Source of the DNA: Streptomyces sp. MBT65
GTDB lineage: Bacteria > Actinomycetota > Actinomycetes > Streptomycetales > Streptomycetaceae
DNA: 58,446 nucleotides
NCBI RefSeq assembly: GCF_016612545.1
Contig: NZ_JAENRY010000010.1
Span: 1-58,446, forward strand
Reading direction: 5' to 3'
The notes beneath the pieces are model-generated. The model had not been told where the DNA came from. It saw nothing but the letters and a program-made list of their open reading frames with translations, and did not search any database. Both the position numbers and the translations under genes were made by a program. Shown in pieces: positions 14,987 through 37,202 of this stretch (position 1 is its first letter; every line of letters begins with the position of its first letter).

Positions 14987-15667
14987 TCAACCGTCCTTGC
15001 CGCCACCGACAAGCCCGTTCTCGTACGCGAAAATCACCGCGTGGACGCGGTCGCGCAGGCCGAGCTTGGCGAGGAGATGGACCATGTGCGTCTTGACGGT
15101 GGTTTCCGACAGGCCGAGCCGCTGTGCGATGAGGGGGTTGCTGAGCCCGGCCACCACCAGGGTGAACACGTCCCGCTCCCGGGCCGTCAGCACCGACAGG
15201 AGGTCGTGGCGGCGGACCGGTACCGGGTCTCTGCCGACGCCGAAGACGTCCGCGTAGGTGTCCAGCAGCCGGCGTGTCGTACGCGGTGACAGGATCGCCT
15301 CGCCGGCGGCTACCGCTCTGATTCCGGCGAGCAGTTCCCCGGGACGCGTGTTCTTCAGCAGGAATCCGCTCGCCCCGGCGCGCAGGCTGTCGAAGGCGTA
15401 CTCGTCCAGGTCGAAGGTGGTGAGGATGACCACCCGGGATGCCGGGTGGTCCGCGACGATCCGCCGAGTCGCGGCGATGCCGTCGAGCACGGGCATACGT
15501 ACGTCCATCAGCACCACGTCGGGTCCCGCGGAAGCCGCCAGAGCCACCGCTTCCGCGCCGTTCGCGGCGAGGCCCACGACCTGCATGTCGTCCTCGGCGT
15601 CGATCAGCAAGGAGAACCCGAGCCTGAGCAGCGGGTGGTCGTCGGCGAGAAGGACGCGGATGGTCAT
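14987..15667 (-). CDS. LuxR-family two-component response regulator
   Basis: 226 aa from ATG 15667. The receiver domain (about 1-120) has acidic pocket ADDH, phospho-acceptor Asp in VVLMDVRMP, Thr in LTTFD and Lys in FLLKNTRP. The C-terminal LuxR helix-turn-helix is LTARERDVFTLVVAGLSNPL followed by ETTVKTHMVHLLAKL. Its start overlaps the kinase stop by four bases. The gene order ATPase, permease, kinase, regulator suggests it controls its own ABC exporter. Confidence 0.93.
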   Translation of the reverse strand: MTIRVLLADDHPLLRLGFSLLIDAEDDMQVVGLAANGAEAVALAASAGPDVVLMDVRMPVLDGIAATRRIVADHPASRVVILTTFDLDEYAFDSLRAGASGFLLKNTRPGELLAGIRAVAAGEAILSPRTTRRLLDTYADVFGVGRDPVPVRRHDLLSVLTARERDVFTLVVAGLSNPLIAQRLGLSETTVKTHMVHLLAKLGLRDRVHAVIFAYENGLVGGGKDG

Positions 15668-16878
15668 CGGTGCGGGGACCCCTCCGTGAGGGGCAATGTG
15701 GCCGTCGTCTGCCACCCTCCACCAGGCCGGGGACCGGCCTCGATCCGGCCGCCGAACAGGGACGCGCGCTCGCGCATCCCGGTGATGCCGTGCCCGGTCG
15801 CCTCTTCGGGCCGGGGCAGCGGCAGGGGGTTCGTGAGTGCCTCGATGCCGTCGTCGCGAACGGTGATGTCGATACAGGTACGGGTGGACCGTATGTCCAC
15901 CGTGACATGGCGGGCCTCGCGGGCGTGCTTGAGGATGTTCTTGAGGGACTCCTGGACGATCCGGTACACGGCGAGCTGCACGGTGGCAGCGACCGTGTCC
16001 AGGCCGTCCGACATGGTCAGCCGGACCTCGGGACCCGCCGAGCGCACCGCGGCGACCAGGGTCGCGAGGTCGCCCACTCCCGGTTGGGGGGACAGTTCGG
16101 CGCGGTCGCCGGTGCGCAGGACGCCGAGCATGCGGTGCATCTCGTCGAGGGCTTGACGGCCGACCTCCGAGGCCTGTGCAATCGCGTCGCGTTGCCTGCC
16201 CGGCGGACCGATGGCGACGGCCGCGTCATTGAGGGTGATCATGACCGAGATGCTGTGCGCCACGACATCGTGCATCTCCCGGGCGATACGCGCCCGCTCC
16301 AGCGCGACCGCGATCTGGGCGCGCGCGTCGCGGTCACGCTCCGCGCTCTCGGCGCGCTCCCAGATGGAGGCGACGTAGGCCCGGCGGGTCCTGGTGTACA
16401 CGCCGAGCAGCCAGGAAGCGGCGACGGTCACGCTGAGCAGGAACCCGCCGAACCAGATGTTGTCCGGATGCCAGCGGATCGTGGCCAGCACCACTCCGAG
16501 CTGCGCACCGCACGCCAGAGCCGCGAGAATCCGCACCGGGGTCTCGCTCAGGCCGAGCAGGAACAGCGCGACCAGGACGGCCAGATCGCCGACCGCGGGC
16601 ACGCCGTACAGCCACTGCGTGAAGCTGACAATCCCGAGGAGCAGGACAGCCGCGACCGGTCGGCGCCGGCACAGCACCAAGGGCGCGGCCAGCGCGAGAT
16701 CCCATCCGGCCGCGCCCAGGGCCTGGTGTTCGAACAGGCCTTTGTGCACCCCGTCCAGCAGCGCCGATGCGGCCGCGAAGCCACCGGCCAGCGCCACGTC
16801 CATGCGGAGTGACCGGTGGTCGTGACGTCGCGGCAGCCGCGGCCGTCGTCCCGGGACCACCGGTCGACCCGCCTTCAC
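15664..16878 (-). CDS. NarL-group sensor histidine kinase
   Basis: 404 aa from GTG 16878. About five membrane helices occupy the N-terminal 150 residues with little extracytoplasmic loop, which suggests intramembrane sensing. HisKA_3 dimerisation region: ARIAREMHDVVAHSISVMI, with the phosphorylated His in MHDVVAH. The ATPase domain has YRIVQESLKNILKHA (N box) and GHGITGMRERASLFGG (G box). It lies 9 bases after the ABC permease and overlaps the response regulator, its cognate partner. Confidence 0.92.
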   Translation of the reverse strand: MKAGRPVVPGRRPRLPRRHDHRSLRMDVALAGGFAAASALLDGVHKGLFEHQALGAAGWDLALAAPLVLCRRRPVAAVLLLGIVSFTQWLYGVPAVGDLAVLVALFLLGLSETPVRILAALACGAQLGVVLATIRWHPDNIWFGGFLLSVTVAASWLLGVYTRTRRAYVASIWERAESAERDRDARAQIAVALERARIAREMHDVVAHSISVMITLNDAAVAIGPPGRQRDAIAQASEVGRQALDEMHRMLGVLRTGDRAELSPQPGVGDLATLVAAVRSAGPEVRLTMSDGLDTVAATVQLAVYRIVQESLKNILKHAREARHVTVDIRSTRTCIDITVRDDGIEALTNPLPLPRPEEATGHGITGMRERASLFGGRIEAGPRPGGGWQTTATLPLTEGSPHR

Positions 16879-16887
16879 TCGCGCTCC

Positions 16888-17730
16888 CTACACGTCACGG
16901 CGACGCAGCAGGGCCGCGGCGCTCACGAGCGCCCCCACCGTCCAGGCGAGGAGGACGGACAGCCCGGTGCCGGGACTGAGGGTGTGGTCCTGATGAAGGC
17001 TCGTGATGAAGCTTTCCCCGGCGTTGCTGGGCAGGTATTCCGCCACGTCCTTGCCCCAGTTTCCCAGCAGCTCGCCGAAGATGATCGGCACGACCAGGAT
17101 CAGGCCCAGGAAGGTGACCAGTGCGCCCGGCGTGTTGCGTACGAGCCAGCCCACCGCACCGCCGAGCACTCCGATGAGCGTCAGGTACAGGGCGGTGCCG
17201 AAGACCGCCCGGGGCACACCGGGATCGGTCAGGGAATATCCGGCGCGGTAGTGCGAGAGCAACCCCTGCGAAGACAGGAAGGCCACGAGGACCGCCACGG
17301 TCATGGCCACCCCGACCACGGCGACGAACACCATCGCCTTGGCCCATACAGTGGGCAGCCGCGTGGGTATTGCCGCGAACGTCGAGCGGATCATGCCCGT
17401 GCTGTACTCACCCGAGACCACCAGTACCCCGAGCGAGCCGATCAGCAGCTGGGCCAGGAGAAAGCCCTGCATCGTCGACGACGGAGCGAGATCCTCCGGT
17501 TGGATACTGGGCGTCACATGCCTGGTGTTCCAGGCGACGATGAGCCCGATGCCCGTCAGAGCGACCACGGCCGCCGCCAGAATGACCCAACTCGACCTCA
17601 GCGTACGTAACTTGATCCACTCCGAGACCACCGCACGCGGCACGGACACGGGTTCGCTGTGCACCTCCGAGCGCACAGGCCCCGCCGCCTGTCCGGCACC
17701 CGCCTCGCCGGCCAGCGTTCCCACGCTCAT
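16888..17730 (-). CDS. ABC-2 type transporter permease
   Basis: 280 aa. The N-terminal region carries EWIKLRTLRSSWVILAAAVV, a pattern typical of actinobacterial ABC-2 permeases, followed by about six membrane segments (for example AKAMVFVAVVGVAMTVAVLV, ALYLTLIGVLGGAVGWLV and FLGLILVVPIIFGELLG). It forms an exporter with the ATPase encoded immediately upstream; the genes overlap by four bases (ATGA). Substrate is unknown; peptide antibiotics or lipids are typical for this arrangement. Confidence 0.9.
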   Translation of the reverse strand: MSVGTLAGEAGAGQAAGPVRSEVHSEPVSVPRAVVSEWIKLRTLRSSWVILAAAVVALTGIGLIVAWNTRHVTPSIQPEDLAPSSTMQGFLLAQLLIGSLGVLVVSGEYSTGMIRSTFAAIPTRLPTVWAKAMVFVAVVGVAMTVAVLVAFLSSQGLLSHYRAGYSLTDPGVPRAVFGTALYLTLIGVLGGAVGWLVRNTPGALVTFLGLILVVPIIFGELLGNWGKDVAEYLPSNAGESFITSLHQDHTLSPGTGLSVLLAWTVGALVSAAALLRRRDV

Positions 17731-18641
17731 GCCGCCTCCTTCGCACGGTACTCCACGGAGTCCTCGGTGAGCGCCATGTAAGCCTCCTCCAACGACCCCG
17801 TCCGGGGGGCCAGTTCGTACAGGGTGACCTCGGCCTTGCGCGCCACCGTCCCTATGTCGTCGCTGGTCAGTCCTTCGACCTCGAAGGTCCCGGACTCACC
17901 CGCGTCGTGCACGATCGCGCCCTCGCGCGCCAGGAGTTCGCTAAGGGTGCCTGCCTCAGGCGATCGCACCCGAACCCGCTCGGCGCCCGAGTCGGCGATG
18001 AAGGAGGCCATCGACTGGTCACGCAGCAGTCGGCCGCGCCCCATCACGATCACATGATCGGCGGTCACAGCCATCTCGCTCATCAGATGGGACGACAGCA
18101 AGACCGTCCGTCCTTCGGCGGCGAGTTCCCGCAGCAGGAAGCGGATCCAGCGGATCCCGTCGGGATCGAGACCATTGACCGGTTCATCGAGGATGAGGAT
18201 CTCCGGATCGGCCAGGAGGGCCGACGCGATGCCCAGCCGCTGCCCCATGCCGAGCGAGAAACGGCCGGCGCGTCGGCCGGCGGCCTCCTCGAGCCCCACG
18301 ATGCCCAGGACCTCGTCCACCCGCTGCCGGCCGATCCCGGCGGTCGCGGCCTGGGCGAGCAGGTGACCGCGGGCCGACCTGCCGGGGTGGATGGCGCGTG
18401 CCTCCAGAAGCGCGCCCACCGCCTTCAGCGGCCGTTCGTGCCGGCTGAAATGGCGCCCGTTCACGGTCACCGTTCCCGAGGTCGGGGCGTCCATTCCCAT
18501 GATCAACCGCATGGTTGTGGACTTGCCGGCCCCGTTGGGCCCCAGAAAGCCGGTGACAACGCCCGGCCGAACCGTAAAGGTCAGGTCCTGCACTGCCGCC
18601 TTGTCGCCATATCGCTTGGTCAGTGCCTCAGCTTCAATCAT
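17727..18641 (-). CDS. ABC transporter ATP-binding protein (ABC-2 exporter)
   Basis: 304 aa from ATG 18641 with GGAGG seven bases upstream. Walker A is GPNGAGKST near residue 35, the signature FSLGMGQRLGIA (variant of LSGGQ), Walker B ILILDEPVNGLDPDG, and switch His in LLSSHLMSEMA. A C-terminal DUF4162-like segment follows. It is the first gene of a four-gene operon with the permease, sensor kinase and response regulator, a layout known for drug- or envelope-stress-induced exporters. Confidence 0.93.
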   Translation of the reverse strand: MIEAEALTKRYGDKAAVQDLTFTVRPGVVTGFLGPNGAGKSTTMRLIMGMDAPTSGTVTVNGRHFSRHERPLKAVGALLEARAIHPGRSARGHLLAQAATAGIGRQRVDEVLGIVGLEEAAGRRAGRFSLGMGQRLGIASALLADPEILILDEPVNGLDPDGIRWIRFLLRELAAEGRTVLLSSHLMSEMAVTADHVIVMGRGRLLRDQSMASFIADSGAERVRVRSPEAGTLSELLAREGAIVHDAGESGTFEVEGLTSDDIGTVARKAEVTLYELAPRTGSLEEAYMALTEDSVEYRAKEAA

Positions 18642-24881: not shown

Positions 24882-27185
24882 TCAACCGCTGGTCGTGAAG
24901 TCGGTGAACTCGTCTTCGCTCGGGTAACCCGGGTTGGCGGCGGTGCCGAAGAGGCCGACGTCCTGGGCAGGGGCGGCGGAGGGAACGTCCGCGGTGCTCA
25001 GTCGGGTCCAGTCGGTGCCGTCGGTGGAGTAGTAGCCGGTGAACGTGGTGCCGGAGCGGACCAGCCGGACCCAACTGGGCAGCACGGGCTTGCCGACGCC
25101 GGAGCCGTTGGGTGCGGTGCCGGCGTCGAGCCGTCCGTCGCCATCGGCGTCCCACTGCATGAAGTAGCCCTTCTTCGCGCTCACACCCACGGTCACGAAG
25201 CCGGGCGAACCGCTCGCGCCGGTGATGTCGTTGCGCACCATGATTCCGGTCTTGGCCCCGGAGTTCTGGTACCGCTGCCAGGTGACACGAACCGTCGTGA
25301 CGGAGCCGTCGTGTTCCGCGCCGGCGGCGTAGAGCGCGCCGTATTCGTTCTTCGGTCCGTAGACGCCGGCGCCGGCCGCGCGAATGCCGAGGGCGGAGCC
25401 GACCTGTGAGAAGTCCGCGGGCTCCGGGGAGGAGGAGAAGGTGTGGAGCGGGGCGCGAACGGGCTCGTCGAGCAGAACGGACGTGTGCCCGCGGGCCGAG
25501 CCGGTGGCCCGTGCCCCGCGGCCGGCGTTCCAGTGGAAGCGGGCGTAGCCGTCGAGCCGGACCGTCGGGAAGAGCTGGGTGATGGACGCCGGTGGCGTGA
25601 CCCGGTAGGCGGCGCGCACCGTCGCGCCGGGCGCGACGGCGGCGAAGGAGGTGGGTGAGACGGGGGTGGCCGTCCAGCCCTTCGGGACGGGCAGGGCCAC
25701 GTGGACACCGGTCGCGACGACGGTGCCCCAGTTGGTGAAGTCCGCGTTGACGGTTGCCTGTTGACCGGTCCCCAGGGTGTCGGGGGCGGTCACGGTGAGG
25801 CCGGTCTGCGGTCGCCCCGACGTCTTGCCCGCGGCCCAAGGACGTATCCGGAACAGCGCCGCGCCGTGCACGGGGACCGAGGCGGCGACGGTGGCACCGG
25901 AGGACCGGGTGACCTCGTGCGTCCACAGGTTGTCGAGACGGTACGAGGAGGACGCGGGCAGGCCGGCCGTCGCCGCGGCCACGGAGACGGTCTGTGCGAC
26001 GGACCCGGTGTTGAACAGCCCCAGGATCACATCACCGTTCGGCTCCGTCTTCGCGAAGACCTGGGCGGTCGCGCTCCTGCTCACCCGGGAGGCATTGACG
26101 CTGTCCTGGTCCACGGCGATCACGTCGCGATTCGCCAGCAGCCTCAGATCGGCGGCGTCGAGCCTGGTCAGGTCCGTACCGAGGAGCAAGGGGGAGGACG
26201 CCAGCGACCACAGGCTCAGCTGGCTCTGCCGCTCGTCGGGGGTCAACCCGCCGTCGCTCCCGTTGCCGACCTCGATCGAGTCGTAGTCGTTGAACGCGCC
26301 GGAACCGCCGAACGGTTGCCAGGCCGCGACCTGGTCGAACCGGGCCGACGTCCGCTGCCAACTGGTCAACGGGGTACTGGATCCGTTGACGCCGCAATAG
26401 CACTCGATGTCGCCGCCGGTGCGCCAGCCGTTGCTCGTGGCCTGCCAGGTGGCGGCGTCGGCGATACTCAGCGAGTTGGAGAGCTCAAGGTGCATCGGAC
26501 GGCCGGTGGCGAGGATCGCCTGGTGCCACGCCCGCATCTCGGGACGGTTGTCCGCGGGGACAAGACCGCCGCCGGGGCCGACGAAGTCCATCTTGATGTA
26601 GTCGACGCCCCAGGAGGCGAACAGGTCGGCGTAGCCCCGCACGTACTCCTCCGCGCCGGGCTTGCCGAAGTCGATGCGGTAGGAGTCGTCGTGGGTGTTG
26701 CCGGGCTGTGTCGGGTCCGCGATGTCCTGCATGTGGTACGCGGTGCCCTGGACCGGCAGGTTCTTCTGGTACGCCTCGATCGGGATGCCCGGCGTGAGAT
26801 AGATGCCGAACTTGAGCCCCAGGCGGTGCAGATACGCGGCGAGGGCGGGGATTCCCTCGGGAAAACGAGTGGTGTCCCAGGCGTTTCGCCCGTAGCCGTC
26901 CAGGTGGTCGGACCAGCCGGCGTCGATGTTGATGTAGCGGTAGCCGTAGCGCCACAGCTTGTCGCGCATGACCCGCGCCTGAGCCTTGATCCCGTCCTGG
27001 GTCAGGCCACTGCCTTCGCGCAGCGCGCTCCAACTGCTCCAGCCCATGGGCGGTGCGGACGAGACGGGCGCGGTGACGCCCGTCGGGGCCACGGGTGCGG
27101 GCGCGGCCACCGCGGGCGACACTCCCGCCGCGAGCCCGAGAAGAAGTAATAGAGACAGCAGACATCTGATCAATCTGGCATGCAT
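24882..27185 (-). CDS. Secreted GH27 alpha-galactosidase with accessory C-terminal domains
   Basis: 767 aa from ATG 27185, which has GAGGAG seven bases upstream; a TTG at 27215 is less likely. The signal peptide is LLSLLLLLGLAAGVSPAVAA. The GH27 barrel has PPMGWSSWSAL, YRYINIDAGW, nucleophile Asp in YIKMDFVG, and general acid Asp in WRTGGDIE. A beta C-domain (VFAKTEPNGDVILGLFNTG), an NPCBM-associated NEW3 domain (about 485-560) and a final jelly-roll with GYYSTDGTDWTRLS follow. It releases alpha-linked galactose or L-arabinopyranose outside the cell. Promoter and operator are at 27248-27293. Confidence 0.88.
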   Translation of the reverse strand: MHARLIRCLLSLLLLLGLAAGVSPAVAAPAPVAPTGVTAPVSSAPPMGWSSWSALREGSGLTQDGIKAQARVMRDKLWRYGYRYINIDAGWSDHLDGYGRNAWDTTRFPEGIPALAAYLHRLGLKFGIYLTPGIPIEAYQKNLPVQGTAYHMQDIADPTQPGNTHDDSYRIDFGKPGAEEYVRGYADLFASWGVDYIKMDFVGPGGGLVPADNRPEMRAWHQAILATGRPMHLELSNSLSIADAATWQATSNGWRTGGDIECYCGVNGSSTPLTSWQRTSARFDQVAAWQPFGGSGAFNDYDSIEVGNGSDGGLTPDERQSQLSLWSLASSPLLLGTDLTRLDAADLRLLANRDVIAVDQDSVNASRVSRSATAQVFAKTEPNGDVILGLFNTGSVAQTVSVAAATAGLPASSSYRLDNLWTHEVTRSSGATVAASVPVHGAALFRIRPWAAGKTSGRPQTGLTVTAPDTLGTGQQATVNADFTNWGTVVATGVHVALPVPKGWTATPVSPTSFAAVAPGATVRAAYRVTPPASITQLFPTVRLDGYARFHWNAGRGARATGSARGHTSVLLDEPVRAPLHTFSSSPEPADFSQVGSALGIRAAGAGVYGPKNEYGALYAAGAEHDGSVTTVRVTWQRYQNSGAKTGIMVRNDITGASGSPGFVTVGVSAKKGYFMQWDADGDGRLDAGTAPNGSGVGKPVLPSWVRLVRSGTTFTGYYSTDGTDWTRLSTADVPSAAPAQDVGLFGTAANPGYPSEDEFTDFTTSG

Positions 27186-27247
27186 CGAGCGACTCCTCAG
27201 ATTGGCCAACGGCAACTTGCCTTGTCCTTACCGGTAGAACCGCACAT

Positions 27248-27293
27248 GTTCTATGCGCGATCCACTGCCACGTCAACACATTCATCCGATGAA
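27248..27293 (-). promoter_or_regulatory. Promoter and operator of the alpha-galactosidase gene
   Basis: On the minus strand, TTGACG (complement of 27271-27276) and TAGAAC (complement of 27248-27253) are 17 bases apart. Immediately upstream is the palindrome TTCATC-C-GATGAA (27281-27293). It shares its CATCCGATG core with the sites at 23801 and 23947, which supports common control of the three secreted enzymes. Confidence 0.6.
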
Positions 27294-27653
27294 TCACTAA
27301 GCGGAGTCCCGCAGACCCACTTCGCACACCACGCGGCTCCGGTCGCCTCCCCCACGCCGACCCGGCACCGACATCTCCGATGCGCGCCGCGTACGAACCC
27401 GTCCCGGAGCGGATCACCCTCCGGAAATCCGTGCCCCTCCGCCTCCGCTCAGCAGCTGCCGGACTGCCCCCACTCCCGGCGAGCGCCCACCCCCGCACAC
27501 CGCCGACAGCCCGCCGAATCGATACACCCACCACCGCACTTCACCCCGTCGGCCACAGGAACCGTCCGATCGAACAGCTGCCAATCTCGATCAGTTATGA
27601 CCGTTTCCGATGAGAGGGTTTGGCCCCTCGCCGGGGCCGTGCAGGATGGGACC
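27294..27653. other. Intergenic region ahead of the large ATPase gene
   Basis: No gene is supported here. The frame of the ATPase is open throughout but lacks a ribosome binding site before the GTG at 27654 (AGGATGGG upstream). ATG 27597 is the only reasonable alternative start. Confidence 0.3.
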
Positions 27654-29696
27654 GTGTCAGGCAACCTCCCAGTCATGACGACCAGCTTTGTCGGCCGCGA
27701 AAGCGAACTCGACACAGTCAGAACGGCGTTGGCCCAGCGGCGCTGCGTCACGCTCACCGGTGGTGGCGGTGTCGGCAAGAGCCGGCTGGCGCTGCGCGTC
27801 GCGGAGCAGCTCCGGGACCGGTACGCCGACGGGGTCTGGTGGGTGGACCTGTCCAACCTCTACGACGACCGGTTGTTCACCGCCACGGTCTGCGACGCGG
27901 TCGACCTGCTGGACCACAATCCGCGCGCCCCGGTCGAGGCGCTGTGCGAGTGGCTGACCGGTCGCCAGGTGCTGCTCGTCTTCGACTGCTGCGAGCGCGT
28001 GCTGGCCTCCTGCCTGCTCCTGGTGAGTGAACTCCTCGCCGCCGCGCCTCAGTTGACCGTTCTCGCCACCAGCAGGCAGGCCATCGGGGTCCGGGGCGAG
28101 CACCGTATCGAGGTGTCCCCGCTCTCCATGGACGACGAGGGCGGCAGCGGAGACGCCGTACGCCTGTTCCGCGAGCGCTGTGCCACGGCCGCCCCCGCGG
28201 TGTCCCTCGACTCCCCCGACTCGGCCGAGGCCGCCCTCGCCATCTGCCGCCGTCTGGAGGGGATCCCGCTCGCCGTCGAACTCGCCTGCGCGCGCCTGCG
28301 GGAGAGCAGCCTCACGGAGATCGCCGAGCGGCTCGGCTCGCGGCTCGACACGCTCGTGGACGAGACCGTGTGGCCGAGGCGGCACCGAGCCCTTCGTACG
28401 GCGATCGGCTGGAGCCATGAACTGTGCTCCCCGCTCGAGCGGTTGCTGTGGGCCAGGCTCTCCGTCTTCCGCGGCCCCCTGGAGACGGCCGACGCGCAGT
28501 CCGTCTGCGCGGGCGGCCCGCTCGACGCCGACGACATCCCCCGACTTCTGGAGCGGCTGGTCGACCAGTCGGTCCTCCAACAGGTGGGCACTCGCTTCCG
28601 GATGCTCGACACGCTCTGCGAGTACGGCGCCATGTGGCTCACGGAACTCGGTGAGAGGGACACCCTGGCCCGGCTCCATGCGGCGCACTTCGCCGACATG
28701 CTGGCCGACGCCGAGGCCGGCTGGCTCAGTGAGCGGCAGGTCGCCTGGTACGCGCGGATCGCGGCGACCCACGCCGACGTACGCGCCGCGCTCGACCACC
28801 TCATCGAGACGGATCCCGACGCCGCCGTCGAAATGGCCGGTCGTACGGGCCTGTTCTGGCCCTGTTGCGGGCACCTGCACGAATCCCGCGACTATCTCGA
28901 ACGCGTCCTCGCCCTCGACACCCCCGCGGGTCCGTCCCGCACCCGCGCGCTCTGGGCCCTCGGGATCACGCTCACCCTCCAGGGCGACCACGGCACCGCC
29001 CTGCGTATCGGGGAGGAGTGCACGGAGGCGGCGCGCGAGGACGGCACACCGCAGTCCGAGCTGTTCGCCGCCCACACCCTCGGCCTCACCCACCTGATGG
29101 CCGGCCGTCCCCAGGACGCGTTCGACGTGAGCGACCACGCCCTGATCACCCACGGCACGTCACCGCCGTCGGGCGCGCCCCAGCTCTGCTGCATGGTGAT
29201 CAGGGCCTTCGCCCACTCCGCGCTGGGCCGCCTGGCCGAGGCCTACGAGGCGGCCATCGCCCTGCGCCGGCTCAGTGTCCGCTACGGCGAGCACTGGGCG
29301 CGGTCGTACGCGTTCCACCAACTCGCCTTCATAGACCTCCTCCAGGGCCGCGCGCACGACGCCGAGCTCCATGCCCGGGCCATGCTCACCAGCAAGCACA
29401 ACCTCAACGACAACCTCGGGATCGCGCTCGCCCTCGACCTCCTCACCGGGGCGAACGCGGTCCAGGGCAACGGCATCGCGGCCGCGCGCACCTCCGGCAC
29501 CGGAAACACCTTCTGGCGCATGCTCGGCCACCCGAACCACGGCACACCCGAACTCTCCGAGGTCCGCGACCAATGGGAGCTGCAGGCCCGCAAGTCGGTC
29601 GGCGACGACGCCTACGACAAGGCCTTCCATCACGCCCTGAACGACGACGCCGAGCAGGGCCTCGCCCTGGTGATGCAGGGGCCGCTTCCCTCCTGA
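27654..29696 (+). CDS. NB-ARC/TPR STAND ATPase lacking a DNA-binding domain
   Basis: 680 aa from GTG 27654. The start NLPVMTTSFVGRESELDTVR is the usual beginning of LuxR- or SARP-linked NB-ARC modules. P-loop TGGGGVGKSRLALRV, Walker B LLVFDCCERVL, sensor ATSRQAIGV, GIPLAVELACARL and RALRTAIGWSHELC follow. The C-terminal 300 residues are TPR-like helices. The chain ends AFHHALNDDAEQGLALVMQG, exactly where relatives continue into a LuxR helix-turn-helix; none is present. It is probably a signal-transducing partner rather than a regulator acting alone. The 3' end overlaps the next gene. Confidence 0.8.
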   Translation: MSGNLPVMTTSFVGRESELDTVRTALAQRRCVTLTGGGGVGKSRLALRVAEQLRDRYADGVWWVDLSNLYDDRLFTATVCDAVDLLDHNPRAPVEALCEWLTGRQVLLVFDCCERVLASCLLLVSELLAAAPQLTVLATSRQAIGVRGEHRIEVSPLSMDDEGGSGDAVRLFRERCATAAPAVSLDSPDSAEAALAICRRLEGIPLAVELACARLRESSLTEIAERLGSRLDTLVDETVWPRRHRALRTAIGWSHELCSPLERLLWARLSVFRGPLETADAQSVCAGGPLDADDIPRLLERLVDQSVLQQVGTRFRMLDTLCEYGAMWLTELGERDTLARLHAAHFADMLADAEAGWLSERQVAWYARIAATHADVRAALDHLIETDPDAAVEMAGRTGLFWPCCGHLHESRDYLERVLALDTPAGPSRTRALWALGITLTLQGDHGTALRIGEECTEAAREDGTPQSELFAAHTLGLTHLMAGRPQDAFDVSDHALITHGTSPPSGAPQLCCMVIRAFAHSALGRLAEAYEAAIALRRLSVRYGEHWARSYAFHQLAFIDLLQGRAHDAELHARAMLTSKHNLNDNLGIALALDLLTGANAVQGNGIAAARTSGTGNTFWRMLGHPNHGTPELSEVRDQWELQARKSVGDDAYDKAFHHALNDDAEQGLALVMQGPLPS

Positions 29697-32125: not shown

Positions 32126-32770
32126 TCAAGCCGCGGCCCCCGGATGCGACTGATCCGTCGCCAGCAGCACCGCGAGTGCAGCGAGAGCGGATCCCGTGAT
32201 GTACCGCTGTACCCGCAGCCAGGCTGGTCGCGCGGCGAGGAACTCCGACAGGGTTCCCGCGGCCATGATGATGACCAGGTTCGCGCACACGCTCACGGCG
32301 ACCTGGATGCCGCCGAAGGCGAAGCCCTGGAGCAGTGGGTTGCCCGCGCGGGTGTTCACGAACTGTGGGATCAGCGAGAGGTACAGCAAGGCGATCTTGG
32401 GGTTGAGGAGGTTGGTGACCAGCCCCATGGTGAAGAGCCGACGGGTGGAGGTGTCGGCCACCGCGCGCGGGGCGAAGACGGACGCGCCGTCCGATCGGAA
32501 GGCCTGGCAGGCCAGCCAGCCCAGATAGGCGGCGCCCACGATCTTGAAGGACGTGTACAGCACGGGGACGGTTCTCAGCACGGCCATCAGGCCGAGGTTC
32601 GTCACCACCACGAAGACCAGGGCGCCGACCGCGACGCCGCCCAGCGACACCACCCCGGCGCGGCGGCCCTGGGCGATGCTCCGCGAGACCATGTACATCA
32701 TGTTCGGCCCCGGAGTGACCACGACCCCGAGGGAGATCGCGGCCACGCTGATCCCGTCGTTCAGGTTCAC
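32126..32770 (-). CDS. LysE/RhtB family amino-acid exporter
   Basis: 214 aa from GTG 32770, overlapping the flavoprotein stop by four bases (GTGA). The family start ISLGVVVTPGPNMMYMVSRS carries the LysE PGPN motif. Six membrane helices are readable, including GALVFVVVTNLGLMAVLRTV, YLGWLACQAF and NLLNPKIALLYLSLIPQF with the conserved NPK. It exports small amino-acid-like molecules. Being last in a three-gene run, it likely removes the product of the flavoprotein and radical-SAM-like enzymes. Confidence 0.9.
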   Translation of the reverse strand: MNLNDGISVAAISLGVVVTPGPNMMYMVSRSIAQGRRAGVVSLGGVAVGALVFVVVTNLGLMAVLRTVPVLYTSFKIVGAAYLGWLACQAFRSDGASVFAPRAVADTSTRRLFTMGLVTNLLNPKIALLYLSLIPQFVNTRAGNPLLQGFAFGGIQVAVSVCANLVIIMAAGTLSEFLAARPAWLRVQRYITGSALAALAVLLATDQSHPGAAA

Positions 32771-34587
32771 CGTCGGTGCTCCCCATCACCGTCGCCGTCG
32801 TGGGGCCCTGCTTCACCACGACGTACGGGCTTCCAGACGAGTTTCCCGGAGTCGTGCACGACGGCGTTGCCGGTGACGTGGTCGGCCGTCGACGGAAAGT
32901 CCTCGCGGTGGTGCGCGCCTCGTGACTCCTCGCGGAGCAGCGCGGACTCGACGATCAGCCGGGAGGCCAGCAGGAGGTTTCCCAGGTCCAGACACGTCTG
33001 GACCTGGCCCGCGGCCCTAGGCCCGGAGGCGATGTCCAGTTCCTCCCGGCGCTCGTCCAGCGCCGCGATCGTCTCGGTCATCGCCAGGAGGCCACGGGCC
33101 GTACGGATCGGACCGGCCTTCAAGTACATCTCCCGGCGCAGGAGTTGGAGCAGGGCCTCGGGGCAGGCGCCGTCCGGGGAGACGTCCATGCGGTAGGGCC
33201 CGGTGACCCGGATGTGCTGTTCCCCCGGCGTTGCCGACGAACCCGTACCGGCACGGACGGCAGCCGCATGACGGCCGGCGATCCGGCCGAAGACGAGGGC
33301 TTCCGACAGACCGTTCCCGCCGAGGCGGTTGGCGCCGTGTACGCCGCCCGCGGTCTCGCCCGCGGCGTACAGGCCGGGAATCGTCGTGCGGGCCGTGCTG
33401 TCGATCCGGAGTCCGCCCATCAGGAAATGGGCGGTCGGGCGCACGGCGAGGACCGATGCGCCCGCCGCACCGAATCCCGGCCTGATCAGACGGAGACGTT
33501 CGTACAGGGCCGGATAGCGCTCCGGTATGACGTGCGCGCAGGCACCGAGATCGAGGTGGACCGTCGCGTCCGGGAATCCGCGGCCCTCCATGATCTCGCG
33601 GTACGCACCGCGCGACACCTTGTCCCGGGTGGCCCGTTCGCCCAGCGGGTCGTAGCGCAGCATGAACCGCTCGCCGTCACGGTTGAGGAGGGTCGCGCCG
33701 TCGAACCGTACGGCTTCCTCGACCGGCATTCCGTCGTACGTCGGTACGTCCGACGCGAGCCCGGTGGGATGGAACTGGACGTACTCCATGTCGATCGCCT
33801 CGGCGCCGGCCCGCAGGCCGAGGGCGAGACCGTCGCACGTCTTGTCCGTGGAGGCGGCCGACGGGGCGTACATCGAGGTGCCGCCGCCGTCCGCGAGGAT
33901 CACGGCATCCCCGGCGATCTCCAGGATCTCCAGGCTCTCGACGGACAGCGCCTCGAGCCCGCACACCTTGCCGTCGGCGTCGAGCAGGATCTCCGTGGCC
34001 CGCAGCCCCGAGCGGACCTCGACACGGCCCTCCTCGACGAGTCCCGCCAGTCGTTCACCGAGCACACGCTGGATGTGGAAGCCGAGCCGGTCCTCCAGGT
34101 GGACAGCGCGGGGTGCGCCGTTGCCGCCGAACGGACGGGTGGCGAACTGTCCGTCACTGCCCTTCTCGAAGGCCAGCCCGAGGCCTTCCAGCCATTCCAC
34201 CAGGCCGTACGCGCCCTGACACAGCGTCCGTACGATGTCCTCGTCGCCCGCGAACGCCCCGCCTGCGAGGGTGTCCTTGATGTGGGCCTCGATGCTGTCG
34301 TCCGGCGCGACGGCCGCGTTGAAGGCGTGGGTCTTCCAGGTGCAGCCGCCGGCCGAGGCCCAGCGGTGCCGGGCATGCTCGTAGACGGCCTTCGTGACGA
34401 GTACGACGTGTGCGCCCTCGGCGGCGGCCTCGATGGCGGCGGCCAGGCCCGCGCCACCGGCGCCGACGACGATCACACGTGGGGCCCGCGACGCGGGTAC
34501 GGACCTCGTCCCGGCCGTATGCGCCGTCGTACTCGCCGACTTCACCGATGCCGTCGCGCTCCCGAACGTCGTCCTCTTCGTCTTCAT
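32767..34587 (-). CDS. FAD-dependent dehydrogenase/oxidase of the SdhA-FrdA-NadB family
   Basis: 606 aa. A ~35-residue Ser/Thr-rich leader precedes the dinucleotide motif VIVVGAGGAGLAAAIEAA. Further family signatures: HARHRWASAGGC (position of the SdhA His-FAD loop), EYVQFHPTGL, LLNRDGERFM, RPTAHFLMGGLRID, GLYAAGETAGGVHGANRLGG and a C-terminal helical domain. The FAD-binding fold is certain, but no iron-sulfur partner gene is present, so it probably acts alone as a desaturase or oxidase on an amino or carboxylic acid, as NadB does. It is coupled to the LysE exporter and follows the radical-SAM-like gene. Confidence 0.85.
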   Translation of the reverse strand: MKTKRTTFGSATASVKSASTTAHTAGTRSVPASRAPRVIVVGAGGAGLAAAIEAAAEGAHVVLVTKAVYEHARHRWASAGGCTWKTHAFNAAVAPDDSIEAHIKDTLAGGAFAGDEDIVRTLCQGAYGLVEWLEGLGLAFEKGSDGQFATRPFGGNGAPRAVHLEDRLGFHIQRVLGERLAGLVEEGRVEVRSGLRATEILLDADGKVCGLEALSVESLEILEIAGDAVILADGGGTSMYAPSAASTDKTCDGLALGLRAGAEAIDMEYVQFHPTGLASDVPTYDGMPVEEAVRFDGATLLNRDGERFMLRYDPLGERATRDKVSRGAYREIMEGRGFPDATVHLDLGACAHVIPERYPALYERLRLIRPGFGAAGASVLAVRPTAHFLMGGLRIDSTARTTIPGLYAAGETAGGVHGANRLGGNGLSEALVFGRIAGRHAAAVRAGTGSSATPGEQHIRVTGPYRMDVSPDGACPEALLQLLRREMYLKAGPIRTARGLLAMTETIAALDERREELDIASGPRAAGQVQTCLDLGNLLLASRLIVESALLREESRGAHHREDFPSTADHVTGNAVVHDSGKLVWKPVRRGEAGPHDGDGDGEHRR

Positions 34588-34642
34588 CAGCCCCCGTGCC
34601 TTTCTGAAGGTCCCGTGCTCGTGTCGGAGTCGAGTGCTCGTG

Positions 34643-36337
34643 TCAGAGCTGCGCGCAGATCTCGTCGAGCAGTCGTCGCTCGGCCGCCTCGTCGTCGTCG
34701 ACTCCGCCGAGCATGTAGCCGCCGAACTTCATGTGTCCGCGCTCCCGGCCGAGCGCGATCACGCCCCGCCCGACATCGGCGATGGCGGCTTCCACGTCCG
34801 CGAGTTCGACCTCTGTGTTCTCGCGGACGTACAACTCGGTGAGACGTCGGGCCGGAATGATCTCGCCGTGTGCGGCACGTACTTCGGGGTGAGTGCGGAA
34901 ACTTTCCCAGTACATCCGCGAGCCCGGGATCACACCGGGTGCCGCGACCGACACCGTGGTGATGGTGTCCCGATAGGTCTCCGCGAGGGAGAGCCAGGAG
35001 TCGACCTCTTCGTGGAGTTGTTTCCGGGTGGTACCGGGCAGACCGAGAATTCCCGAGGCGTAGATCTTGTAGTCCAGCTCCTGAGCGAGTTCGAGTGCCT
35101 CATAAACCCGGTCGGGCCCTTTGTTGATGCCCTTGGAGTCGCCCTTGAGGAGTTTGGGGTCGAATGCCTCCAAGCCGACGTTCCACGTGCGTACGAAGCC
35201 CTGGCACAGCTTGGCCGACTGGAGGAACTCGAAGACCAGGCCGTAGGCGAGGAGGAACCGGTGGTCCCGGAGAACCGGTGAGGCCGCGCAGCGTTCCGCG
35301 AGTTCGTCGAGGTAGCCGATGTCTCCGGACCACTGCGCCCGGGAGAAGCCGAGGGTGGAGTCCCCGGCGGCGTAGACATTGGCACCGAGGCCGCCGACCA
35401 CCTTCTCGAGTGCGGGAACGATCGTGTCGATCCGGGCGAATTTCGGAGTGAGCCCCTGGATCGAGCAGTGCTTGCACCGGCGTCCGGGGCGCGTTCCCCA
35501 GGTGCAGCCGGCGTCCAGAGGGAGCGTGACCATGCGTTTCAGGTCGTAGTGATGGGCGTACCAGACGTCGAACGCCTTGTCGTAGTACCGCTCGAGTTGG
35601 TCTTCTATGAGTCCGTAGTCGGGGAGGACGCGGCGGTCGAGCGGATACGTGGGGGCCGGTTGATTGACGACCTGAAGGTGGTCGCGATAGGCGAGCGAAG
35701 GGACGCGTTTCAGATCGAGTTGGCCCCGTAACGCGTACAGGAGGCCGAGCATGGTGAAGGGGCCGTTGTTGCCCGTGCTGACGAAATCGACGAGCCGGTG
35801 ACCGTAATGACCGGTGAGGATTTCGCGGTGGAGGATTCCGGCGTGGTCGTTGCCGAACACGACGACCGCGTCGGGGTTCACCCGCTTGATCTCCGCGGCG
35901 ACGATGAAAGCCCACAGTGCGGTGGCGGTGTAGACGGTGAACGCCGCCACGTCCGGGGGATCCGCGGCGATGGCGGCGCGGACGTCGTCCCACGGGACAT
36001 GGCTCAAGTCGAGGTATTTCCAGGAGAGTTCGGGGATGTACTGCTCCTGGTAAGTGATCATCTCGACCAGGCCGGAGTGGGGGTAGACCGTCCCCTCGTT
36101 CCGATACCGCTCCTGGCCGTCCACGCCGTCCACCAGGGCACCGCCGCCGGAGTGGCCGCCGCGGTGGGCGGAGGTGAGCGGCAGGGCGAAATACCAGACG
36201 GACCGGGGAGCGGAGGCGGGGCGAGGACCGGAGCCTAATCGCGGACCCGAACCGGGTCCGGTAGCGCCGGGCGGAGGGAACGTCCACTGGAACCGACCAT
36301 CGACGCCGACGACTTCCTCGGTCGGCTCCAAGCTCAT
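34643..36337 (-). CDS. B12-binding-domain radical-SAM-like enzyme with non-canonical Cys motif
   Basis: 564 aa from ATG 36337; the frame extends to a TTG at 36484, but codon bias is poor in that stretch. Residues about 75-200 look like a B12-binding Rossmann fold (DVAAFTVYTATALWAFIVAA, VVVFGNDHAGILHREIL, where GGPH-type proteins have a loop). A TIM-barrel-like segment follows, with GCTWGTRPGRRCKHCSIQGL: Cys-X9-Cys-X2-Cys instead of the usual Cys-X3-Cys-X2-Cys. Later LGLPGTTRKQLHEEV and NVGLEAFDP are normal radical SAM features. A C-methylation or rearrangement role is plausible but inferred. It is first in the exporter operon. Confidence 0.75.
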   Translation of the reverse strand: MSLEPTEEVVGVDGRFQWTFPPPGATGPGSGPRLGSGPRPASAPRSVWYFALPLTSAHRGGHSGGGALVDGVDGQERYRNEGTVYPHSGLVEMITYQEQYIPELSWKYLDLSHVPWDDVRAAIAADPPDVAAFTVYTATALWAFIVAAEIKRVNPDAVVVFGNDHAGILHREILTGHYGHRLVDFVSTGNNGPFTMLGLLYALRGQLDLKRVPSLAYRDHLQVVNQPAPTYPLDRRVLPDYGLIEDQLERYYDKAFDVWYAHHYDLKRMVTLPLDAGCTWGTRPGRRCKHCSIQGLTPKFARIDTIVPALEKVVGGLGANVYAAGDSTLGFSRAQWSGDIGYLDELAERCAASPVLRDHRFLLAYGLVFEFLQSAKLCQGFVRTWNVGLEAFDPKLLKGDSKGINKGPDRVYEALELAQELDYKIYASGILGLPGTTRKQLHEEVDSWLSLAETYRDTITTVSVAAPGVIPGSRMYWESFRTHPEVRAAHGEIIPARRLTELYVRENTEVELADVEAAIADVGRGVIALGRERGHMKFGGYMLGGVDDDEAAERRLLDEICAQL

Positions 36338-36521
36338 CTCCACGACGTCTCCCACCGCTGTCGGTACCAGGAGCGCCCCAGCGTCATCGCCCGCTCGGGG
36401 CCCTGTCACGCGCCGTTCCGCTGAGCGGACCCGCCTTCGCGCTCTTCCAGGTGCGTGGCCCGACTCCAGGTGACGTTCCGTCAATTTCCCTCGCGGGCAG
36501 CGGTGTTGAGCGACTTCACCG

Positions 36522-37202
36522 TCACAGCACAGGAAGATCGCCAGGGTTCACCAAGCCGCTCCGGAAGGCGAGGACGACGAGTTGGGCGCGGTCGCGGGCG
36601 CCCAGTTTCATCATCGCCCGGTTGATGTGGGTCTTCGCGGTGAGCGGAGAGACGTACAGCCGCTCCCCTATCTCGTCGTTGGAGAGCCCGGCGGCGACCA
36701 GGGCCATGATCTCGCGCTCCCGCTCGGTGAGGCAGTCGAGTTGGACCGGGCTGGGCAGTGGGCCCGGGTTCGGCTGGGAGAGGAAGCGGGCGATGAGGCC
36801 GCGGGTGGCCTTCGGTGACAGCAGGGCGTCGCCTCGGGCGACGACCCGGATGGCCTCCTGGAGGTCGGCCGGTTCGACACTCTTGCTGAGGAACCCGCTC
36901 GCGCCGGCGTGCAACGCGCGCAGGACGTTCTCGTCGAGTTCGAAGGTGGTGAGGATCAACACCCGTACGCCTGCGAGGTCTTCGTCGGCGGTGATGAGCC
37001 GGGTCGCCTCGATGCCGTCCAGTTCCGGCATCCGGATGTCCATGAGGATCACGTCGGCGCGGGTGCTGCCCGCGAGGTCGACCGCCTCGCGGCCGGTCGT
37101 CGCCTCGCCCACCACCTCCAGGTCCGGCGCCCCGCCGACCAGGACGCGGAAACCGGCCCGGATCAGTGTCTGGTCGTCGGCGAGCAGCACGCGGATCGTC
37201 AC
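36522..37202 (-). CDS. LuxR-family two-component response regulator
   Basis: 226 aa from GTG 37202, overlapping the kinase stop by four bases. Receiver: LLADDQTL, phospho-acceptor Asp in VILMDIRMP, LTTFELD, and Lys in FLSKSVEP. LuxR helix-turn-helix: LTEREREIMALVAAGLSNDE followed by LTAKTHINRAMMKLG. It pairs with the kinase encoded upstream. A multicopper oxidase gene lies divergently beyond the kinase and is a candidate target. Confidence 0.93.
   Translation of the reverse strand: MTIRVLLADDQTLIRAGFRVLVGGAPDLEVVGEATTGREAVDLAGSTRADVILMDIRMPELDGIEATRLITADEDLAGVRVLILTTFELDENVLRALHAGASGFLSKSVEPADLQEAIRVVARGDALLSPKATRGLIARFLSQPNPGPLPSPVQLDCLTEREREIMALVAAGLSNDEIGERLYVSPLTAKTHINRAMMKLGARDRAQLVVLAFRSGLVNPGDLPVL

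Follow-up and report, generated by a model that had tools for sequence, protein, structure and literature searches.

Several described systems resemble parts of the locus analysed here. In the class 1 cobalamin-dependent radical SAM enzymes (OxsB, TsrM, TokK, CysS), an N-terminal Rossmann domain precedes the radical SAM barrel, the cluster motif is Cx3Cx2C, and a residue of the loop following strand 3 lies under the cobalt of the bound cobalamin. The radical SAM diol dehydratase AprD4 is not known to use cobalamin, and its cysteine spacing differs from the one reported below. Among gene clusters, arsQML, for arsinothricin, is likewise a compact combination of a radical SAM enzyme, a tailoring enzyme and a permease for an exported amino acid, as outlined in the relevant parts of PMC8552651. 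In the gvg cluster, a non-proteinogenic amino acid (4-formylaminooxyvinylglycine) leaves the cell through LysE carriers, and no radical SAM or SdhA-like gene is among those described in the corresponding parts of PMC8067088.

The window, by which we mean the whole analysed stretch of 58,446 nucleotides from Streptomyces sp. MBT65, contains a cassette of three co-directional genes on the minus strand (36337-32126 in the ORF list) encoding a B12-type radical SAM protein, a stand-alone FAD protein and a LysE-family carrier. As far as the two cluster descriptions go, LysE export is already known from gvg, and arsQML offers a parallel for three genes, one of them for a radical SAM enzyme, that yield an exported amino acid, although the cassette has no gene like the ArsM and ArsQ genes of the latter. 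A literature search, run with no positive control over sources that mostly exclude subscription journals, found no described pathway combining these parts. The papers listed dealt with unrelated or parallel systems, bearing out the first-pass annotation, which had known of no named pathway with this trio. In our view the cassette represents a new family of radical SAM proteins, found in a modular setting of amino-acid export.

Layout of the cassette and its counterpart in Streptomyces sp. P3

The first gene (34643-36337, minus strand) encodes the radical SAM protein of 564 aa. Its open frame begins at 36484, and the Met at 36337 lies within a few residues of the start in most of 31 aligned family members. 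A gap of 55 bases with no gene in it separates its stop from the flavoprotein gene (32767-34587, minus strand, 606 aa), whose stop is overlapped by four bases (GTGA in the junction sequence) by the GTG start of the LysE gene (32126-32770, minus strand, 214 aa). Third-codon-position G+C was 0.82, 0.86 and 0.91 for the three genes in that order. The position and common direction of the trio, the coupling of its last two genes and the three protein classes had all been read correctly from the sequence beforehand, the classes now being supported by Pfam for the flavoprotein and the carrier and by fold for the radical SAM protein. Upstream on the same strand lies a LuxR-type response regulator (36522-37199), the 3′ part of which also adjoins the radical SAM gene in Streptomyces sp. 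P3 (89.6-89.8% DNA identity). It is a possible regulator of the cassette. A consensus scan found no sigma-70-like promoter or terminator.

P3 carries the trio in the same order. By blastn, window positions 36441-34636 and 34511-32145 aligned with the P3 locus at 91.8% and 89.9% DNA identity, the alignment reaching from about 100 bases upstream of the radical SAM gene to 19 bases short of the end of the LysE gene. Differences at codon positions 1, 2 and 3 numbered 29, 26 and 106 in the radical SAM gene, 37, 33 and 111 in the flavoprotein gene and 13, 7 and 33 in the LysE gene; changes were thus mostly at third positions, as under purifying selection. All three genes are frameshifted in the P3 sequence (L012 10100-14211), the radical SAM gene also around its cysteine motif, which reflects either error in a long-read assembly or real decay. 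The window and P3 are the two loci in which the trio was read directly. A hydrolase and a methyltransferase at 29.6-32 kb of the window are absent from the P3 locus and were rejected as cassette members, justifying the doubt that the first-pass annotation had expressed about them.

The radical SAM protein and its family

Assignment of the first protein to its class rests on fold, because its matches to the B12-binding (PF02310, E 1e-5) and Radical_SAM (PF04055, E 3e-4) domains were both under Pfam cut-offs. The model folds like OxsB, CysS, TsrM and AprD4, and its N-terminal Rossmann domain is followed by a radical SAM barrel, the domain order of the class 1 enzymes, with which it shares 13-18% identity in fold alignments. 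In contrast to their Cx3Cx2C, its triad, Cys278, Cys288 and Cys291, is spaced Cx9Cx2C, and the protein is therefore not a canonical B12 radical SAM enzyme; the earlier label of a B12 radical-SAM-like protein holds for the B12-type class, as judged by fold, and not for the canonical enzyme.

A 5.8-billion-protein set was searched twice, with only about 8,000 candidates scored each time, which yielded 107 relatives (protein clusters), 104 in one search and three more in the other. The family is sharply bounded: all 107 share at least 51% identity in the aligned part, and the five proteins that come next fall to 23-26%. Cx9Cx2C is present in 103 of the 107, the exceptions being three short proteins (304-341 aa) and one of 542 aa from which the segment is absent (P0002), while the canonical CX3CX2C motif occurs in none (0/107). 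Among the 95 proteins of at least 500 aa, the first cysteine of the triad is kept in all 95 and the other two in 94. No further cysteine in this set reaches the 98% conservation line, so a single cluster would be expected. Tyr136 is invariant in the same full-length proteins (95/95) and aligns, weakly (E 0.16), with Asn186 of OxsB, the residue under the cobalt; if this weak alignment holds, a Tyr would occupy the position taken by Asn, Arg or Trp in class 1 enzymes. CX9CX2C together with radical SAM and cobalamin was not found among the best 15 of 195 matches in the literature searched, again with no positive control and with subscription journals mostly outside. If these assignments are right, they add a radical SAM family that a search with the canonical CX3CX2C pattern would miss, and one whose cobalt surroundings would be unlike those given in the relevant sections of PMC13331322. 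Conservation across the family makes the Cx9Cx2C motif and the Tyr directly testable by mutation.

The family is rare in whole genomes. With at most 3-5 candidates scored per genome and overlapping taxon samples, members were found in 6 of the 392 genomes sampled from the genus, one of which is the genome of the window, in 2 of 249 from the taxonomic family, in 2 of 394 from the class and in 1 of 396 from the phylum, the last being again the window's own genome, found with an alignment query. Named hosts include Streptomyces, Wenjunlia, Micromonospora, Actinomadura, Nocardia, Actinoplanes, Thermomonospora and an Anaerolineaceae MAG. Viral contigs gave 36 pattern matches and no relatives; plasmids gave one partial match to the radical SAM protein (29.5%) and 93 bases of a LysE gene. 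Some hosts hold two members: Streptomyces sp. CB02923 has two genes in different settings, about 78% and 68% identical to that of the window (L011 and L026), and the Anaerolineaceae MAG has two under nearby locus tags (H6631_03505 and 03515). In genome G263 the gene (L027 8393-10053) is split over two frames.

The flavoprotein and the LysE carrier

The second protein matched PF00890 (FAD_binding_2, E 4e-67) and PF02910 (Succ_DH_flav_C, E 2e-15). It scored under the NCBIfam cut-offs for NadB (TIGR00551, 331.3 bits against 452.75), for SDH/FRD (TIGR01812, 354.1 against 567.3) and for its best model, TfrA (NF004900, 407.1 against 718). When aligned with SdhA, it keeps the His, Glu, Arg, His and Arg columns (HPT, E, TRD, TAHF and GANRL) that we take to be catalytic. 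The Glu of the NadB-type REGG motif, which presumably recognises the amino group in NadB, is missing, the segment reading RPFGG in the flavoprotein and four aligned relatives and REGG in the NadB of the same genome. L-aspartate oxidase NadB belongs to the same superfamily and acts alone; its identity with the flavoprotein was rejected on the score below cut-off, the missing Glu and the presence of the genome's own NadB at 545 bits. Of the two affinities first proposed, SdhA-like and NadB-like, the FrdA/SdhA side is therefore the nearer and the NadB side falls away.

The flavoprotein differs from FrdA/SdhA in carrying an insertion, CTWKTHAFNAA, common to its family, and in having no iron-sulphur or membrane partner gene alongside. 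Its same-strand neighbours are the radical SAM and LysE genes, and no iron-sulphur partner gene adjoins it, in agreement with its earlier description as unpartnered. Covalent FAD is not claimed, since many relatives have Tyr or some other residue in place of the His of SdhA. In a relative from Streptomyces alanosinicus (P0159, 44% identity), both catalytic His columns are lost and the Arg and Glu columns kept. No flavoprotein was found among 69 genomes in the genus of G456 (query A2, no positive control). The third protein matched the LysE family (PF01810, E 9e-31) at 107.3 bits against a gathering score of 25.6, consistent with the predicted amino-acid exporter.

Modular context and proposed function

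Ten loci with the radical SAM gene were compared in nine genomes: the window; P3 (L012); CB02923 (L011/L023 and L026); Wenjunlia (L013); G257 (L024); G248 (L025); G263 (L027); G112 (L028); and Thermomonospora (L032). The names CB02923 (G353), Thermomonospora echinospora (G986), Wenjunlia vitaminophila (G1146) and, below, NBC_00083 (G320) are inferred assignments. Since L028 is cut by a contig end, the downstream flank is visible in nine loci, five of which have an exporter gene directly after the radical SAM gene, LysE in the window and P3 and MFS in L011, L013 and L024. The MFS genes, that of L013 identified by Pfam, begin 5-6 bases after the radical SAM stop when the earliest start codon is taken, and their proteins are 52-63% identical to one another. 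The other four (L025, L026, L027 and L032) have no exporter directly downstream. In L025 an NRPS and an L-amino acid ligase (PF18603) lie in a divergent operon beside the radical SAM gene; in L026 it is followed by a regulator, by eye, and in L032 by genes for a solute-binding protein of family 3 and for a membrane protein with no Pfam match. No cobalamin riboswitch was matched at Rfam gathering thresholds in the window, L011, L012, L013, L024, L025, L026 or L032; the Rfam comparison, over nine sources other than L027 and L028, gave no match in four and one tRNA in the other five.

The flavoprotein family was absent from all seven other radical SAM-bearing genomes tested (best matches 37-39% identical), and its link to the radical SAM gene is therefore not general. 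Conversely, in G320 (L035) the flavoprotein gene lies between an L-amino acid ligase gene (PF18603) and a gene for a multi-pass membrane protein, MFS-like by eye, whose longer open frame has no Pfam match, and the genome has no member of the radical SAM family (best match 28% identity, E 4e-4). The trio is thus modular, and its parts move separately; conservation of the three together, proposed at the outset as a check, was seen in P3 and broke down in the seven radical SAM genomes and in G320. The flavoprotein clusters at 78-100% identity to that of the window (P0105-P0121, 17 clusters) hold 66 member sequences, close to the 74 members of radical SAM cluster P0001, and from this similarity in size the trio may be commoner than the loci read show; the similarity carries no weight in the readings below.

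Two further settings were observed. In both CB02923 (L011 15503-21540) and Thermomonospora (L032 13322-19590), despite their belonging to different families, a block of sugar-uptake genes (for an amylase-like enzyme, a binding protein and a LacI-like regulator, by eye) is found close to the radical SAM gene. In G257 (L024 15291-19899, L038 47-2254), the radical SAM-MFS pair is followed by a single-NRPS gene, a diaminobutyrate-type aminotransferase and an aspartokinase, a region that, by eye, resembles a poly-diaminobutyrate cluster.

Neighbouring binding proteins give a hint of the substrate. In G257 a gene for a TAXI-type binding protein (PF16868) is the immediate upstream neighbour of the radical SAM gene; G112 has a remnant of such a gene at that place, and in Wenjunlia it is one gene more distant. 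Because a TAXI gene is present somewhere in all seven genomes searched, only its position is informative; G257 and G112 each hold another copy elsewhere, so their linked genes are extra, whereas the TAXI gene of Wenjunlia has a miaB-like neighbour (by eye) and could be the core copy. Family 3 solute-binding domains adjoin the radical SAM gene in Thermomonospora and Wenjunlia, and TAXI or solute-binding neighbours together occur in only four of the ten loci. The hint is weakened by the window, P3, CB02923 and G248 loci, where no TAXI match lies beside the radical SAM gene. A TAXI protein of Vibrio cholerae is reported to be glutamate-specific, and one of Bordetella pertussis to form a TAXI-GltS system (PMC11574862, PMC12344293). 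Taken with the dicarboxylate pocket of the flavoprotein, these neighbours suggest, but do not prove, a molecule resembling glutamate or aspartate.

Our main reading, to which we give a probability of about 40%, is that the predicted cobalamin-type radical SAM protein, the stand-alone flavoprotein and the LysE carrier act together on an acidic amino acid similar to glutamate or aspartate, which they would modify, oxidise and export. We infer the chemistry, the substrate and the use of cobalamin as follows. Cys278, Cys288 and Cys291 would hold one [4Fe-4S] cluster that cleaves SAM, and cobalamin would bind in the Rossmann domain in its base-off form, Tyr136 lying below the cobalt. The substrate would be a small acidic amino acid, and the likeliest reaction C-methylation of its side chain; alternatively, the enzyme would catalyse a rearrangement or form a ring. 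The flavoprotein would then remove two electrons beside a carboxylate and pass them to oxygen or a soluble acceptor, and LysE, or MFS in the relatives, would pump out the product as an antimetabolite or signal. If so, the cassette points to a compact source, marked by its exporter, of unusual acidic amino acids, among which useful antimetabolites are found. The fuller version, in which a new B12 radical SAM branch with Cx9Cx2C and Tyr under the cobalt leads to a glutamate-like antimetabolite that a free-standing relative of fumarate reductase oxidises and an exchangeable exporter secretes, is more doubtful.

The same context bears on a reading in which two modules merely lie side by side, the radical SAM protein making its own amino acid for export or NRPS incorporation and the flavoprotein and LysE forming a separate oxidation and export unit. 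The radical SAM gene without the flavoprotein in seven of seven genomes, the reverse in G320 and an overlap confined to the flavoprotein and LysE genes all favour it, but the common gene order in P3 at 90-92% DNA identity and the short radical SAM-flavoprotein gap argue the other way, and we consider it unlikely while giving it real weight. AprD4, the top VIA fold match of the radical SAM protein at 15% identity, suggests a further alternative in which no cobalamin is used, the Rossmann domain is only a scaffold, and dehydration or rearrangement precedes a redox step. We regard this AprD4-like chemistry as rather improbable. No aminoglycoside genes were seen in the cassette. That the radical SAM protein, by the logic of ArsL, uses SAM as donor of a 3-amino-3-carboxypropyl group and so turns an acceptor into an exported glutamate analogue would match the gene economy of arsQML (radical SAM enzyme, tailoring enzyme, permease) and its α-amino acid product, as given in part in PMC8552651. 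The same source gives ArsL as 428 aa with CX3CX2C, against 0/107 in the family here, and the cassette has no arsM-like gene, which together make this very unlikely; kinship with ArsL was rejected, and ArsL is kept solely as a parallel in logic. Still less probable is self-protection or detoxification, in which the cassette would act on a toxic amino acid produced elsewhere, altering it and removing it from the cell: an exporter does follow the radical SAM gene in 5/9 loci and the window cassette has no core assembly-line gene, but a relative lies within the NRPS and ligase region of L025, and radical SAM chemistry is costly for detoxification.

Elsewhere in the window, positions 27180-29696 encode a STAND-type NTPase with TPR repeats (NB-ARC, TPR_12) that gave no clear defence-system match in PADLOC. 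An ABC transporter, a sensor kinase and a response regulator, by eye, are encoded at 14987-18641; three of these genes have relatives close to the flavoprotein operon of NBC_00083 (L035 14262-17519), where a response regulator comes after them, which may be due to chance.
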